Source: Arthrobacter pullicola
GTDB taxonomy: Bacteria > Actinomycetota > Actinomycetes > Actinomycetales > Micrococcaceae
Direction: 5' to 3'
Assembly: GCF_014836875.1 (NCBI RefSeq)
Contig: NZ_JACSQC010000001.1
Span: 310,001-374,000, forward strand
DNA length: 64,000 bases
Shown: piece after piece, positions 60,490 to 64,000 of the stretch
How positions within the stretch are numbered: position 1 is the stretch's first letter
Layout of the letters: each line of letters opens with the position of its first letter
Made by a program: the position numbers and the translations under genes
The notes under the pieces: model-generated
Databases searched by the model: none
Seen by the model: the letters and a program-made list of their open reading frames with translations, nothing else
What the model was told of the DNA's origin: nothing

Positions 60490-61782
60490 CTAGGAGGCGC
60501 GGCCCTCAACGGCCCGGCGGATCACCGGGGTGAGCCGGCGGATGCCCTCGGCAATCTCGTCCGGCGAAACAGCGCTGAACGCCAGCCGCAGCTGGGCGCT
60601 CGGGGCGTCTCCCGGGGTAAACGCGGCGCCGGGGATGAAGACCACCCCGGCATCGATGGCTTCGGTCAGCAGCGGATACGTGTCGATGCCGTCGGGCAGG
60701 CTTACCCAGATGAAGAAACCGCCGTCCGGCACCGTCCAGGTAACGCCGTCGGGCATGTGCTCGCCGAGTGCGCGGAGCATTGCGGTGCAGCGTTCGGCGT
60801 AGAAGGTGCGTGAGGCCTCGACACGGCCCATCCAGTCGAAGTCACGAAGGTACGCCGCGGTGATCATTTGTGTCAGGGGTGAGGGGCAAAGCACCACGGC
60901 CTCACACGCCAGGTAGAAACGCCGGAAGAGATGCTTGGGCACCAGGGCCCAGCCCAGGCGGAGGCCCGGCGCGAAGATCTTGGAGAAGGAACCGAGATAC
61001 AGCACATCTTCCGGGTGGTTGGCACGAAGCGGGACCAGCGGTTCCCCGTCGAAGCGCAGCATCCCGTAAGGGTTGTCCTCCAGCACCAGGATGTTGTTCT
61101 CCCGGCAGATGCGGACGACGGCGTCCCGGCGCTCCGCGGAGAGGGTGATTCCGCTCGGGTTGTTGAAGCTGGGAATGGTGTAGAGGAACTTGATCCGTTT
61201 GCCGGCAGCCCGGAGGGAATGGATCCGCTCCTCGAGGGCTGCTGGGACCAGTCCGTCGGAGTCCATGGGGACCGGCTGCAGGTCCACCTCGTAGGCCTCG
61301 AAGGCATTCAGTGCGCCCACGTAGGTGGGATCCTCACAGAGCACCACGTCACCGGGATTGCAGAACACTTTGGCGGCCACGTCCTGGGCGGACTGGGAGC
61401 CGGTGGTGATGATGATGTCCGCGGGGTCGGCGTCCAGGATGCCTTCGGCCGCCATCACCTCACAGGCCAGCTCCCGGAGCTCCTGCAGGCCCTGGCCGGG
61501 GCCGTACTGAAGCGCGGCCAGGCCGTGGTTGCGGATGATGTCCGCAGAGACGTCGGCCAGCTCGTCCAGGGGCAGCGACTGGAGGTAGGGACTGCCTCCC
61601 GCCAGGGAAATCAGGCCCGGCTGGATGGAAATGTCGAAAACGTCCCGGACAGCCGACTGCTTGATGTGAAAAGCACGGTCCGAGAGCAGGTCATGGTGCC
61701 GGTGGGCGGAGTCGGTGGCCCGGTCAAGCGCCACCTGTGCTTCCGGGGTCAGCGTTGATCCCGTGGTTTCCTCGAAAGTCAT
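60490..61782 (-). CDS. PLP-dependent aminotransferase (2-aminoadipate/MocR-type catalytic domain)
   Basis: 430 aa fold type I enzyme. GLISLAGGSPYLQSLPLDEL, TGSQSAQDVAAKVFCNPGD, PSFNNPSGITLSAERR, EDNPYGMLRF and the PLP lysine in LGSFSKIFAPGLRLGW are blocks of the LysN/aminoadipate aminotransferase group; no DNA-binding domain is fused. The amino donor and acceptor are not predictable. It lies 45 bp downstream of the TrmB/LuxR-type regulator on the same strand. Confidence 0.87.
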   Translation of the reverse strand: MTFEETTGSTLTPEAQVALDRATDSAHRHHDLLSDRAFHIKQSAVRDVFDISIQPGLISLAGGSPYLQSLPLDELADVSADIIRNHGLAALQYGPGQGLQELRELACEVMAAEGILDADPADIIITTGSQSAQDVAAKVFCNPGDVVLCEDPTYVGALNAFEAYEVDLQPVPMDSDGLVPAALEERIHSLRAAGKRIKFLYTIPSFNNPSGITLSAERRDAVVRICRENNILVLEDNPYGMLRFDGEPLVPLRANHPEDVLYLGSFSKIFAPGLRLGWALVPKHLFRRFYLACEAVVLCPSPLTQMITAAYLRDFDWMGRVEASRTFYAERCTAMLRALGEHMPDGVTWTVPDGGFFIWVSLPDGIDTYPLLTEAIDAGVVFIPGAAFTPGDAPSAQLRLAFSAVSPDEIAEGIRRLTPVIRRAVEGRAS

Positions 61783-61827
61783 GCCACATCATGGCATCCG
61801 AGTTGACCGGGAAGCAACATGCGTTTC

Positions 61828-62796
61828 CTAAATCCAGCCTGCTTTTTGCGCCTTCACTCCGGCCTGAAACCGGCTTTCGGCCTTCAGCTCTTCGAGCATC
61901 CACGCAATGTGGCGGCGGCAGGTCCGTACGCTGATTCCCACCCGGCGGGCGATGATCTCGTCCGAGTGGCCCGCCGCCAGCCCTGCCAGGACTGACCGCT
62001 GTGTGCTGTTGAGCCCTGCTTTCCCCGGGTCCTCATCCAGGAAGGGTTCAGCCAGGCTCCATGCGAACTCAAAGAGCATGGCGAATAATCCGATCAGATT
62101 CGGGTCCCGGATCACCAAGCCCGCGCGGTCATAGCTGTGCAGCTGCCGGGCCACAACGGCCACTTTGTCATCGAAGATCAGCGTGCGGAGCGGAACGTAG
62201 GGCAGGGTCCGGAACTCGCCGCCGGCACCGCTGATCATCTCCACGGCCTTGCGGGTGGGTACATGGTCGCGGGTGCTGGCGTGGTAGAGCGTCTGCCGCC
62301 GAACCCCGGCGCGAAGCAGATCCAGGTCTTTCTGCACGCTTTCCTCCTGGAAATCCGCATTGGAACCGTGTCCTGGCCGGGCGATCAGAACCCGGTCGGA
62401 TGCTGAACGGCCGTATTCGATGAGGACCCGCTGCACCTGCTCGGGATCTTCCAGTACCTCCACCGAGGCATCTGCTGCAGCTTGCCGGCGCGCTTCGGCG
62501 AAAGTTGGCACCAGGCCTGCCAGCTCCCTGCGCTTGGCACCAATCCGTGAGCGCAGTTCCAGCATCGCCCTTTCATCCGGGTCCACCAGCTCCGCGAGTG
62601 CGACGTCGGGGGACACCGCCGTGTAGACCGGCACATCGGTTCCTTCCGCGAAGAGCAGGCACCGGGACCGCAGCTCCTCCACGGCCTGGTCGATGGCACG
62701 CGTGGTGTACCCCAGGGCGTCCGAGGCCTCGGCGGGGGTCCAGCCAGGATGGGCGACCGCATAGCGGTAGACCTCAACCGACACCTGATCAAGCAC
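61828..62796 (-). CDS. TrmB/LuxR-type transcriptional regulator
   Basis: 322 aa from GTG 62796, seven bases after AGGAGG; ATG at 62802 lies directly on that site. The N-terminus is a TrmB-like winged helix (VEVYRYAVAHPGWTPAEASDALGYTTRAIDQAVEELRSR). The middle is a PLD-like/sensor region with IARPGHGSNADFQ and LIFDDKVAVVARQ. The C-terminus is a LuxR-type HTH: GLNSTQRSVLAGLAAGHSDEIIARRVGISVRTCRRHIAWMLEEL. No receiver domain, so not a two-component protein. It diverges from a 17-codon peptide gene and a lantibiotic-dehydratase-domain gene, so it likely controls them. Confidence 0.83.
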   Translation of the reverse strand: MLDQVSVEVYRYAVAHPGWTPAEASDALGYTTRAIDQAVEELRSRCLLFAEGTDVPVYTAVSPDVALAELVDPDERAMLELRSRIGAKRRELAGLVPTFAEARRQAAADASVEVLEDPEQVQRVLIEYGRSASDRVLIARPGHGSNADFQEESVQKDLDLLRAGVRRQTLYHASTRDHVPTRKAVEMISGAGGEFRTLPYVPLRTLIFDDKVAVVARQLHSYDRAGLVIRDPNLIGLFAMLFEFAWSLAEPFLDEDPGKAGLNSTQRSVLAGLAAGHSDEIIARRVGISVRTCRRHIAWMLEELKAESRFQAGVKAQKAGWI

Positions 62797-62890
62797 GTGC
62801 ATCCTCCTCAAAACCGCGTCGTAAGGCCGTCGCGGGGCCGGTTCGTTTATCAGCGCGGGCGTGTTGTCATCCCGGCGGGGGCAAAGCGTT

Positions 62891-62940
62891 CCGGGTCGAA
62901 ATTGGAACCCGGAGACAATGACATGGCAAGTTAATGCCAT
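62891..62940. promoter_or_regulatory. Two inverted repeats between the regulator and the peptide gene
   Basis: CCGGGT-N10-ACCCGG at 62891-62912 and ATGGCA-AGTTAA-TGCCAT at 62923-62940, both with perfect 6-bp arms, lie about midway in the 371-bp divergent interval. The second, with an A+T centre, is a good candidate operator for the LuxR-type regulator. The rest of 62797-63167 shows no gene. Confidence 0.5.
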
Positions 62941-63167
62941 TCTCCATGGAAACTCTCAGTTTGGGCACCTAAGCCTGCGAATTCCGTGCCCTCTAGCGTG
63001 TCACCGCACGCCTCCCGGCACCTGGCGGGGGTGGTCCGGGCATCAACCGGCCATGACAGGAAGCTGAAATTCGGAACTGTGGACACGCCCTCTCGGGGCG
63101 GGGGAAGCTTTCGGAGTCAAACACGGCCGGCTGTGCAACCAGCCGAACTAAAAGAGGGGATACGACC

Positions 63168-63221
63168 ATGGAGAAAGCTACAGGATCAACGGTTTCCATC
63201 AAGAGCTGGGAATGGTTCTGA
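63168..63221 (+). CDS. 17-codon peptide gene, candidate RiPP precursor
   Basis: Encodes MEKATGSTVSIKSWEWF. AAAGAGGGG is placed eight bases before the ATG, a near-ideal ribosome site, which is the main support for such a short ORF. The peptide has five Ser/Thr, no Cys, and an aromatic W-E-W-F end. A hairpin follows, then a gene for a lantibiotic-dehydratase C-terminal domain, and a LuxR-type regulator is divergent. Precursor of a modified peptide or a signal is inferred from context. It is too short for a conventional leader plus core. Confidence 0.6.
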   Translation: MEKATGSTVSIKSWEWF

Positions 63222-63226
63222 TTTAG

Positions 63227-63244
63227 TCCCCTCGCTTTGGGGGA
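63227..63244 (+). terminator. Small hairpin after the peptide gene (attenuator-like)
   Basis: TCCCC-N8-GGGGA directly after the TGA. With no T-run it would not fully stop transcription, but could raise precursor mRNA relative to the downstream enzyme gene by protecting its 3' end. Confidence 0.35.
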
Positions 63245-63318
63245 AGAACCAACCAGCAACACACATATAGACCCGCCCCAGCGGTGGTAACCAGCTTTGA
63301 ACCCGGAGGAAGATCGCC

Positions 63319-64000
63319 ATGAGCCAGCTAACAGCAGTTCGAAACGCCTCGCGAACTAATGCAAGCACTCACTGGTGGACGCTTTCGATCTATACCGGCG
63401 GCTTCGATGTAGCGGACGGCATCATTGGAGAACTGGTTACCCCGCTGGCGGCGCAGGCTCAGCTATGGGGAGCGCAGCGGTGGTTTTATACCCGCTGCTC
63501 TGAGCCAACAAACGCACACGTGAGGATCAAGATCCTTGCTCCGCAGGAGACCCTGGACCGGCTGCAGTCGCTTCTTGTCGCGCTGCAGGAGCAGGCAAGC
63601 GGGGTCATTGGGCACCTGAGCGTAACGCACGCCTTTGGGGATCCCGCCTCCGACCGGCTCGGTCCCGGCGGGGCCGAACAGCAGGACCCCCGGGTGGAGG
63701 CCGATCTCGCCAAGTACGGTGGCGTGGAAGGCCTGGCCCTGGCGGAAGAAGTCTTCGAACTTTCCTCTGACCTGGGTACCTGGGCCACAGCACGCTTCCC
63801 CAAGGTCCAGAACAGGTGGGCGCTGGGATCCCTGCTGCTCTTCGATTCGGCGCGCAGCATGATGAAGGGTCCACGCGCTTCCAGCTGGCCCGACCGGCGC
63901 CGGCTTTCCTGGGAGTATTACTGGGATAGCCATCTGCGCAGCTGCACAGCGGGTTTTGGTCCCCGTGCCGCGAGTGTCCGCCAGGCGATGACAGTCCAGG
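63319..64000 (+). CDS. Lantibiotic-dehydratase C-terminal (SpaB_C / thiopeptide-type) domain protein, 3' end outside window
   Basis: 227 codons visible; ATG eight bases after CCGGAGGA. The start WWTLSIYTGGFDVADGIIGE and RWFYTRCSEPTNAHVRIKIL match the start of SpaB_C, which in LanB enzymes removes glutamate from glutamylated Ser/Thr. DLAKYGGVEGLALAEEVFELSSD corresponds to the conserved RYGG...E block. It begins as a stand-alone domain without the large N-terminal LanB part, like split LanB or PEARL-type systems; the partner may lie beyond the window. Located 97 bp after the 17-codon peptide gene. Confidence 0.75.
   Translation, partial: MSQLTAVRNASRTNASTHWWTLSIYTGGFDVADGIIGELVTPLAAQAQLWGAQRWFYTRCSEPTNAHVRIKILAPQETLDRLQSLLVALQEQASGVIGHLSVTHAFGDPASDRLGPGGAEQQDPRVEADLAKYGGVEGLALAEEVFELSSDLGTWATARFPKVQNRWALGSLLLFDSARSMMKGPRASSWPDRRRLSWEYYWDSHLRSCTAGFGPRAASVRQAMTVQ

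Follow-up and report, generated by a model that had tools for sequence, protein, structure and literature searches.

A W-[DE]-W peptide gene beside a lone SpaB_C protein gene in Arthrobacter pullicola and related bacteria

Stand-alone proteins that correspond to the elimination domain of LanB dehydratases have been suspected, in one report, of modifying peptides in ways other than elimination (PMC7268733). For the biarylitides, a second report describes a precursor of five residues that adjoins the gene of its partner, a P450 enzyme (PMC13417212). Two peptide circuits are also relevant: ComRS of streptococci, in which an Rgg-like receptor activates another gene, comX (PMC6211226), and a Clostridium Agr peptide system to which CA_C0082, a LanM-like protein without catalytic residues, is attached (PMC10301443). 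Here we describe a locus of Arthrobacter pullicola in which a 17-residue peptide, MEKATGSTVSIKSWEWF, is encoded directly 5' of a lone SpaB_C (Lant_dehydr_C) protein. It lies in a 64,000-nucleotide stretch (contig NZ_JACSQC010000001.1, positions 310,001 to 374,000; hereafter the window) of a 3.62 Mb genome, which a first-pass annotation had read as containing a possible locus for a ribosomally synthesized and post-translationally modified peptide (RiPP). We found that homologous peptides built around a W-[DE]-W motif accompany lone SpaB_C genes in seven genera. A search of the open-access literature, with most subscription papers and bioRxiv preprints outside its scope, returned no earlier report of such peptides, and the cassette apparently has not been reported before. 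We tentatively favour the explanation that SpaB_C acts as an enzyme on the W-[DE]-W motif, binding and modifying it, in which case the product would be a very small RiPP.

A conserved peptide gene 5' of lone SpaB_C genes

In a family-level scan, SpaB_C matches were present in 87 of 395 genomes and in 10 of 32 genera. The locus survey covered 85 of the 87 positive genomes, with one locus per genome; the match in G253 was not located, L193 was not used, and the matches in G323 and G058 have the coordinates of L021 and L022, respectively, the latter with the peptide present. Three loci (L071, L072 and L073) located in thiopeptide-type clusters were dropped, leaving 82 cassette loci, 28 of them in the genus of the window (g1). 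Twenty-six orphan SpaB_C paralogues, part of the total, served for comparison. The loci are related, and the counts given here are not independent.

Every one of the 82 cassette loci encodes a homologous peptide directly 5' of its lone SpaB_C gene. It was flagged automatically in 81 of the 85 loci; the misses were the three dropped loci and L164, whose peptide (...GTGSWDWPKSQPQAGSPVVPG) was recognised by hand reading. The motif was W-D-W in 67 loci and W-E-W in 12, placing an acidic residue between two Trp in 79 of 82 peptides, with W-G-W, W-A-W and Y-D-W in one locus each. A chance open reading frame (ORF) was ruled out by reverse-strand, shuffle and orphan controls: a strict W[DE]W ORF occurred in 78 of 85 loci but on none of the 85 reverse strands, in only 0.06% of 1700 dinucleotide shuffles and 5' of none of the 26 orphan SpaB_C genes, and a looser pattern gave 80 of 85 loci, no reverse strand, 1.5% of shuffles and one orphan. 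Among 21 first-round relatives the ORF preceded SpaB_C in 16, and the other five (L016-L019 and L023) form a paralogue group in which none was found. Across 80 peptides, the two motif Trp were near-invariant (79 and 80 of 80), and codons varied synonymously (GAC 54, GAT 13, GAA 6 and GAG 6; CCG 19, CCC 19 and CCA 3), with all three stop codons in use. Sequence comparison thus confirmed the W-[DE]-W peptide gene as a genuine conserved gene. The first-pass annotation had singled out this 17-codon ORF for its good ribosome-binding site, and both the ORF and its expected conservation in relatives held up.

The features of the locus, from left to right, are as follows.

60490-61782, minus strand: class I/II aminotransferase (Pfam)
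61828-62796, minus strand: divergent regulator with a TrmB-like winged helix-turn-helix (wHTH), a coiled coil, a PLD-like alpha/beta domain and a C-terminal LuxR helix-turn-helix (HTH) (profiles and model)
62919-62939, no strand: putative operator-like palindrome, site 1, TGACATGGCAAGTTAATGCCA (0 mismatches)
63038-63058, no strand: putative operator-like site 2, inverted (3 mismatches)
63100-63120, plus strand: conserved box GGGGGAAGCTTTCGGAGTCAA 5' of the peptide gene (alignment of 14 loci)
63153-63159, plus strand: ribosome-binding site AGAGGGG (sequence)
63168-63221, plus strand: peptide gene encoding MEKATGSTVSIKSWEWF (17 residues; homologues in all cassette loci)
63228-63243, plus strand: short hairpin 3' of the peptide stop codon (3 consensus pairs)
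63319-64000, plus strand: lone SpaB_C protein of 319 amino acids (PF14028), ending at the equivalent of position 64278 beyond the window

The peptides take two forms. Signal-like hydrophobic N-termini, called by a simple hydrophobicity rule alone, were present in 51 of 82 peptides, which carry one to six motif copies overall. This is the usual form in g32, g26, g5 and g8, in which the N-terminus is followed by one to six copies of the motif, for example ...GAASWDWPKTVTASWDWPK and ...GVWDWPQQAVAGVWDWPQQ... The signal-like N-terminus was missing in 31 of 82 loci, namely all 28 of g1, the sole g9 locus, the sole g14 locus and one of 38 in g32. Later start codons were chosen in this analysis for L067 and L145, and L145 then lacked a signal-like stretch. 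Peptides of g1 include MEKATGSTVSIKSWEWF, MKKATAPVSIKSWEWF, MTKVWDWI and MKSWDWF, and the seven residues of MKSWDWF are the entire peptide in 11 g1 loci. The signal-like form looks ancestral and appears to have been lost more than once, because g5 and g8 branch first in the SpaB_C tree; the g9 and g14 rows of this tree have long branches, and their placement is unsure. The window peptide contains no Cys, and eight of 82 peptides lack Ser and Thr in the segment that begins three residues ahead of the first Trp and runs to the C-terminus.

Wider scans gave matches in 20 of 396 genomes at the level of the order and in 28 of 394 at the level of the class. Among 37 loci read from these scans, a near-motif candidate was seen in L108 only (FLWGWPQTVAD, 5' of a different SpaB_C subfamily); it has no clear start codon, is probably due to chance and was dropped. 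L120 and L132 were judged to be unrelated.

With its two Trp codons and the hairpin that follows the stop codon, the short ORF could also be a leader-peptide attenuator whose Trp codons tune transcription or translation of SpaB_C. The hairpin is weak, although one consensus pair is switched from C-G to G-C in five of 14 loci. No U tract was seen at 63228-63243, and an Rfam scan of 61000-64000 returned no family at the gathering threshold. Signal-like N-termini, up to six repeats in other genera and the acidic residue kept between the two Trp also argue against attenuation, which we regard as the least probable of the explanations considered. The box GGGGGAAGCTTTCGGAGTCAA is almost invariant in 13 of the 14 aligned loci and is absent from L020.

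Fold, residues and ancestry of the SpaB_C protein

The first-pass annotation took the SpaB_C gene to stand alone, and it does. Its product matched PF14028 (Lant_dehydr_C) above the cut-off (4.4e-19, 70.1 bits) and scored 45.1 against NCBIfam TIGR03891, slightly below the cut-off of 48.45. The nearest named relatives, at 96-98% identity, are in A. gallicola, A. luteolus, A. citreus and A. koreensis. An AF2 model (pLDDT 89.9, pTM 0.88) has the SpaB_C fold, and Foldseek matched it to MadB, MibB, TbtD, a [4+2] aza-cyclase, TsrL, PbtD and NisB; for LanB dehydratases and the pyridine synthases TbtD and PbtD, E values ranged from 1e-07 to 3e-04, with TM scores of about 0.44-0.59 (query). Several g1 loci (L074, L083, L086, L092 and others) are in genomes with several SpaB_C paralogues, up to five matches per genome and partly in tandem.

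We followed five residues that we take to be those of glutamate elimination: the two Arg of HxRxR, the acid and the K/R of the YxPE...[KR]YGG stretch, and the His of HMxxNR. All five were present in eight of eight thiopeptide-type proteins, in eight of 78 cassette proteins (all in g1) and in three of 26 orphans; the 78 rows exclude L021, L159, L166 and L169, in which SpaB_C is incomplete. Taken singly, both HxRxR Arg were kept in 11 of 78 cassette proteins, Glu127 in 77, K/R132 in 70 and His284, the His of HMxxNR, in 75, compared with six of 26 orphans for His284. The window protein has Arg69 and Lys71, that is, a Lys in place of the second Arg of HxRxR. Of Y-x-P-E, the Tyr was present in one and the Pro in none of the 78 cassette proteins, as against eight of eight thiopeptide-type proteins. 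As judged from these residues, the elimination site is partly eroded, not abolished. Three aromatic residues, W20, W55 and F146, were kept in 78, 78 and 77 of the 78 cassette proteins and in all eight thiopeptide-type proteins, and in only 10, 7 and 5 of the 26 orphans, which have no W-x-W peptide. Retention of W20, W55, F146 and His284 in the cassette, when they are mostly changed in orphans, is as expected for a working peptide site.

The LanB glutamylation domain, PF04738, was not found in the genome of the window, nor in 12 of the 13 cassette genomes searched. A divergent LanB could have been missed in these searches, because of two controls, G005 matched PF04738 above the cut-off and G022 only below it. 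The thirteenth genome, G256, encodes a PF04738 LanB N-domain protein on another contig (L211, G256:C27). It is therefore conceivable, but very improbable, that SpaB_C works as half of a split LanB in trans, eliminating glutamate from Ser or Thr that a LanB encoded elsewhere has glutamylated. The domain family that it shares with split LanBs of the thiopeptide type, the protein in G256 and the eight g1 proteins with all five residues would suit this arrangement; the 12 genomes in which no PF04738 was found and the eight peptides without Ser or Thr near the motif do not. Ser/Thr dehydration, one of the reactions the first-pass annotation had left open, is unlikely because the searches revealed no glutamylation partner in the genome of the window and because the elimination site has partly eroded, with the set of residues incomplete in the window protein itself. 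A second candidate, C-terminal amino-acid addition by PEARL (aminoacyl-tRNA ligase) chemistry, requires a LanB N-domain, which was not found in the genome of the window. We rejected both as the common reaction of the cassette, keeping the trans-acting LanB as a minor alternative.

In the SpaB_C tree, the cassette proteins and the Arthrobacter orphans formed one clade (support 100/99), and the nearest row outside it, moderately supported (91/86) and on a long branch, was the SpaB_C protein of L191. L190 and L191 contain a thiocillin-family precursor that scored above its NCBIfam cut-off, a SagB-like dehydrogenase that scored below, an M50 protease, and PF04738 and PF14028 proteins, presumably a split LanB of the TbtB/TbtC type. 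In the L191 cluster, a regulator of the cassette's family lies on the same strand. Sequence relationships thus showed that the cassette SpaB_C shares ancestry with proteins of thiopeptide-type clusters. Recruitment from a thiocillin-like cluster is suggested as the simplest history, because the nearest outside SpaB_C sits in such a cluster together with the same regulator family. As side observations, the M50 protease of L190 matched the daptide metalloprotease model below its cut-off, and similar split-LanB RiPP clusters were read by eye in L184, L186 and L188 (f35 genomes) and in L192, which, like L190 and L191, belongs to the Micrococcaceae.

Regulator, palindrome and a second small protein

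The divergent gene encodes a TrmB/LuxR-like regulator, as the first-pass annotation had proposed. Its LuxR HTH matched above the cut-off, and its model (pLDDT 80.5, pTM 0.51) contains a wHTH, a long helix, an alpha/beta domain and a LuxR HTH. Foldseek matched the model to archaeal TrmBL2 (1.5e-12), TrmB (1.0e-07) and PLD-family domains, with low whole-chain TM scores of about 0.3. Pfam TrmB matched weakly (best 0.0036) in five of 16 regulator homologues and not in the window protein. The longest ORF extends to ATG 62940, but the start is more likely GTG 62796, because several homologues start there, AGGAGG lies 6 nucleotides upstream and the longer ORF would cross the operator-like site.

A homologue of the regulator adjoins the peptide gene divergently in 77 of 82 cassette loci; in the remaining five genomes, all of g1, it lies 8.4-11.3 kb from the operator-like site. 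Within 420 nucleotides 5' of the peptide, 75 of 82 loci match the palindrome TGnCATGnCnnnTTAATGnCA at 0-2 mismatches; five others have 3 mismatches and the last two have 4. This agreement is partly circular because the palindrome was derived from the same loci, whereas its rarity elsewhere is not. A reversed-palindrome control gave 4-7 mismatches in the 82 loci, and the two loci with 4 mismatches (L182 and L183) were no better than this. In the window's own genome, a specific form (up to 3 mismatches) occurred twice, both times here, and the control not at all. A search of 12 other genomes, allowing up to 2 mismatches, placed it at the cassette in 10 and not in G035 or G008, with four further matches elsewhere compared with two for the control. 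The five g1 genomes with a distant regulator had a 0-mismatch site beside the peptide and two further matches (1-2 mismatches), against 11 for the control. The palindrome thus travels with the peptide operon, since the perfect site stayed with the peptide where the regulator moved, and the regulator probably binds it.

One possible explanation for this arrangement is a signalling circuit in which the unmodified peptide is the ligand, SpaB_C is a pseudo-enzyme serving as its binding partner or co-receptor, and the regulator reads their state and feeds back on the operon. The palindrome at the peptide operon, the frequent loss of an HxRxR Arg and of nearly all Y-x-P relative to thiopeptide-type proteins and the failure to find a LanB partner all fit such a circuit. 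Export looks dispensable because 31 of 82 loci have no signal-like N-terminus, and there is a precedent (PMC6211226) for a 17-residue ComS and a 7-residue XIP that can act without export. However, His284, Glu127 and K/R132 are largely kept, and SpaB_C may still be an enzyme because eight g1 proteins keep the full residue set. Moreover, strong palindrome sites were seen only at the cassette's own operon and no separate target genes were seen, the sensor domain is PLD/TrmB-like rather than a known peptide receptor, and no peptide importer was seen nearby. We consider this circuit the main rival to modification of the motif, but less likely; in it, the peptide would be secreted and re-imported in most other genera and would act inside the cell in the window's genus.

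In 79 of 82 cassettes, SpaB_C is followed on its own strand by an ORF of about 63 amino acids. The exceptions, in which none was found, are L164, L182 and L093, and six orphan and five thiopeptide-type loci added to the search likewise yielded none. Its C-terminal tail contains two Trp and has the general form RDAAWA...Wx. RDAAWA was exact in 75 of 79 copies and carried one change in the other four, and all 75 exact copies have 11 residues from the R of RDAAWA to the stop, with Trp at place 10. The copy in the genome of the window lies just beyond its end (L002:3328-3519) and ends RDAAWADGLWD. This protein may be a second substrate. It could instead be the effector, either as a DNA-binding protein or as a second peptide substrate, with the W-[DE]-W peptide merely tuning it; its presence in most cassettes, the conserved tail and a weak HTH_17 match (two of 13, best E 0.0064) fit that role. 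Because the copies in g8 have a different N-terminal part, with the HTH-like part gone and the tail alone kept, the DNA-binding proposal is weakened, and together with the three cassettes in which no copy was found, this makes the effector role improbable.

The first-pass annotation had suggested looking for further biosynthetic genes beyond position 64000. The region read there has the small ORF followed by a catalase gene, and no LanB glutamylation protein, P450 or exporter was seen. Ten neighbour proteins scanned against Pfam comprised a catalase, a GAF-ANTAR protein, an oxidoreductase, an alanine dehydrogenase, transketolase-type and 2-oxoacid dehydrogenase proteins, an aminotransferase and one protein without a match. 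In the window genome the cassette lies near genes for 2-oxoacid dehydrogenase, an aminotransferase and alanine dehydrogenase, some of which, several identified by eye, are shared in other genera. These recurring neighbours (L179-L183, L005, L008 and L002) raise a possible link to amino-acid catabolism.

The proposed modification and known systems

In the explanation that we tentatively favour, the peptide, the lone SpaB_C protein and usually the 63-residue protein would form a small, separately regulated operon controlled by the TrmB/LuxR-like regulator, probably through the dedicated palindrome. SpaB_C would recognise the Trp/Asp(Glu)/Trp motif directly in the cytosol, without a leader, and would install a change on Trp or on Asp/Glu. 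In other genera, multi-core precursors would be exported by way of the signal-like N-terminus; in the window's genus, the product would either remain intracellular or depend on a general exporter to leave. Several findings point this way. The SpaB_C fold belongs to a peptide-modifying family, the up to six motif repeats resemble multi-core precursors, strong palindrome matches at its own operon are as expected if the operon makes its own product, and the fixed-length two-Trp tail of the 63-residue protein also counts for a RiPP.

Other observations weigh against this explanation. The complete elimination set is present in only a small minority of cassette proteins; SpaB_C is split or lacks an end in G058, G323, G145, G335 and G351 (L022, L021, L159, L166 and L169), through decay or sequencing error; RiPP leaders do not usually have a signal-like N-terminus; and neither a second modifying enzyme nor an exporter, protease or immunity gene was apparent among or beside the cassette genes. 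In addition, gene order is similar across genera, unlike most RiPP clusters. The cassette seems to have been passed on at a fixed location and not to have spread as a mobile cluster.

The RiPP-machinery interpretation of the first-pass annotation is partly supported. A gene-encoded peptide is conserved beside a member of a peptide-modifying protein family, and the parts look RiPP-related; the modification itself is predicted, and chemistry may take place at Trp or Asp/Glu. That annotation had also called the peptide a scaffold, a role that is at most tentative; the relatives are more in keeping with a repeated core or a signal. It is possible, if somewhat doubtful, that the regulator and SpaB_C came from a thiopeptide-type cluster, that the elimination chemistry drifted and that they now constitute a new peptide system, including the 63-residue protein, in which a W-[DE]-W peptide of as few as seven residues is either an intracellular or extracellular signal sensed by a pseudo-enzyme or a leaderless RiPP with undescribed Trp/Asp chemistry. 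Lone SpaB_C proteins are annotated under labels such as 'thiopeptide-type bacteriocin biosynthesis', even where there need be no thiopeptide product. Because comparison has supplied a partner peptide, what a stand-alone SpaB_C protein does can be put to a direct test using two small genes and synthetic peptides.

Among described systems, class I LanB dehydratases share the PF14028 elimination domain with the cassette, and no counterpart of their PF04738 domain was found in the window's own genome. Cys/Ser/Thr-rich precursors and azole-forming or dehydrogenase genes, as in thiopeptide clusters, were not seen at the cassette (farther neighbours were read by eye). The stand-alone elimination-domain proteins of PMC7268733 belong to class I lanthipeptide clusters that also encode a full-length LanB; none was found for the cassette, and its window peptide has no Cys. 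The cassette resembles biarylitide loci (PMC13417212) in its extremely short precursor and central aromatic residues, and differs in that no P450 was seen among the neighbours scanned or read by eye. It shares with ComRS (PMC6211226) a 17-residue peptide gene, a seven-residue form (the active C-terminus in ComRS) and a dedicated regulator, but its regulator model matched TrmB, PLD and LuxR folds rather than an Rgg/RNPP-type peptide receptor, a SpaB_C protein is present, and strong sites lie at its own operon only. Like CA_C0082 (PMC10301443), SpaB_C may be a RiPP-enzyme relative without a full catalytic set in a peptide system, although CA_C0082 is related to LanM and not to the LanB C-terminal domain.

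A close likeness is to the split LanBs of the thiocillin-like clusters L190 and L191. These have PF04738 proteins, a thiocillin-family precursor and SagB-like dehydrogenases, none of which was seen in the cassette, and the cassette's elimination residues are partly eroded; both nevertheless encode a homologous SpaB_C as a separate protein, and L191 shares the regulator family. Set beside them, the cassette gives a view of successive evolutionary stages, beginning with an antibiotic-type cluster, ending in a small peptide unit under its own regulation and including genera with signal-bearing repeat precursors and species with only a 7-mer.

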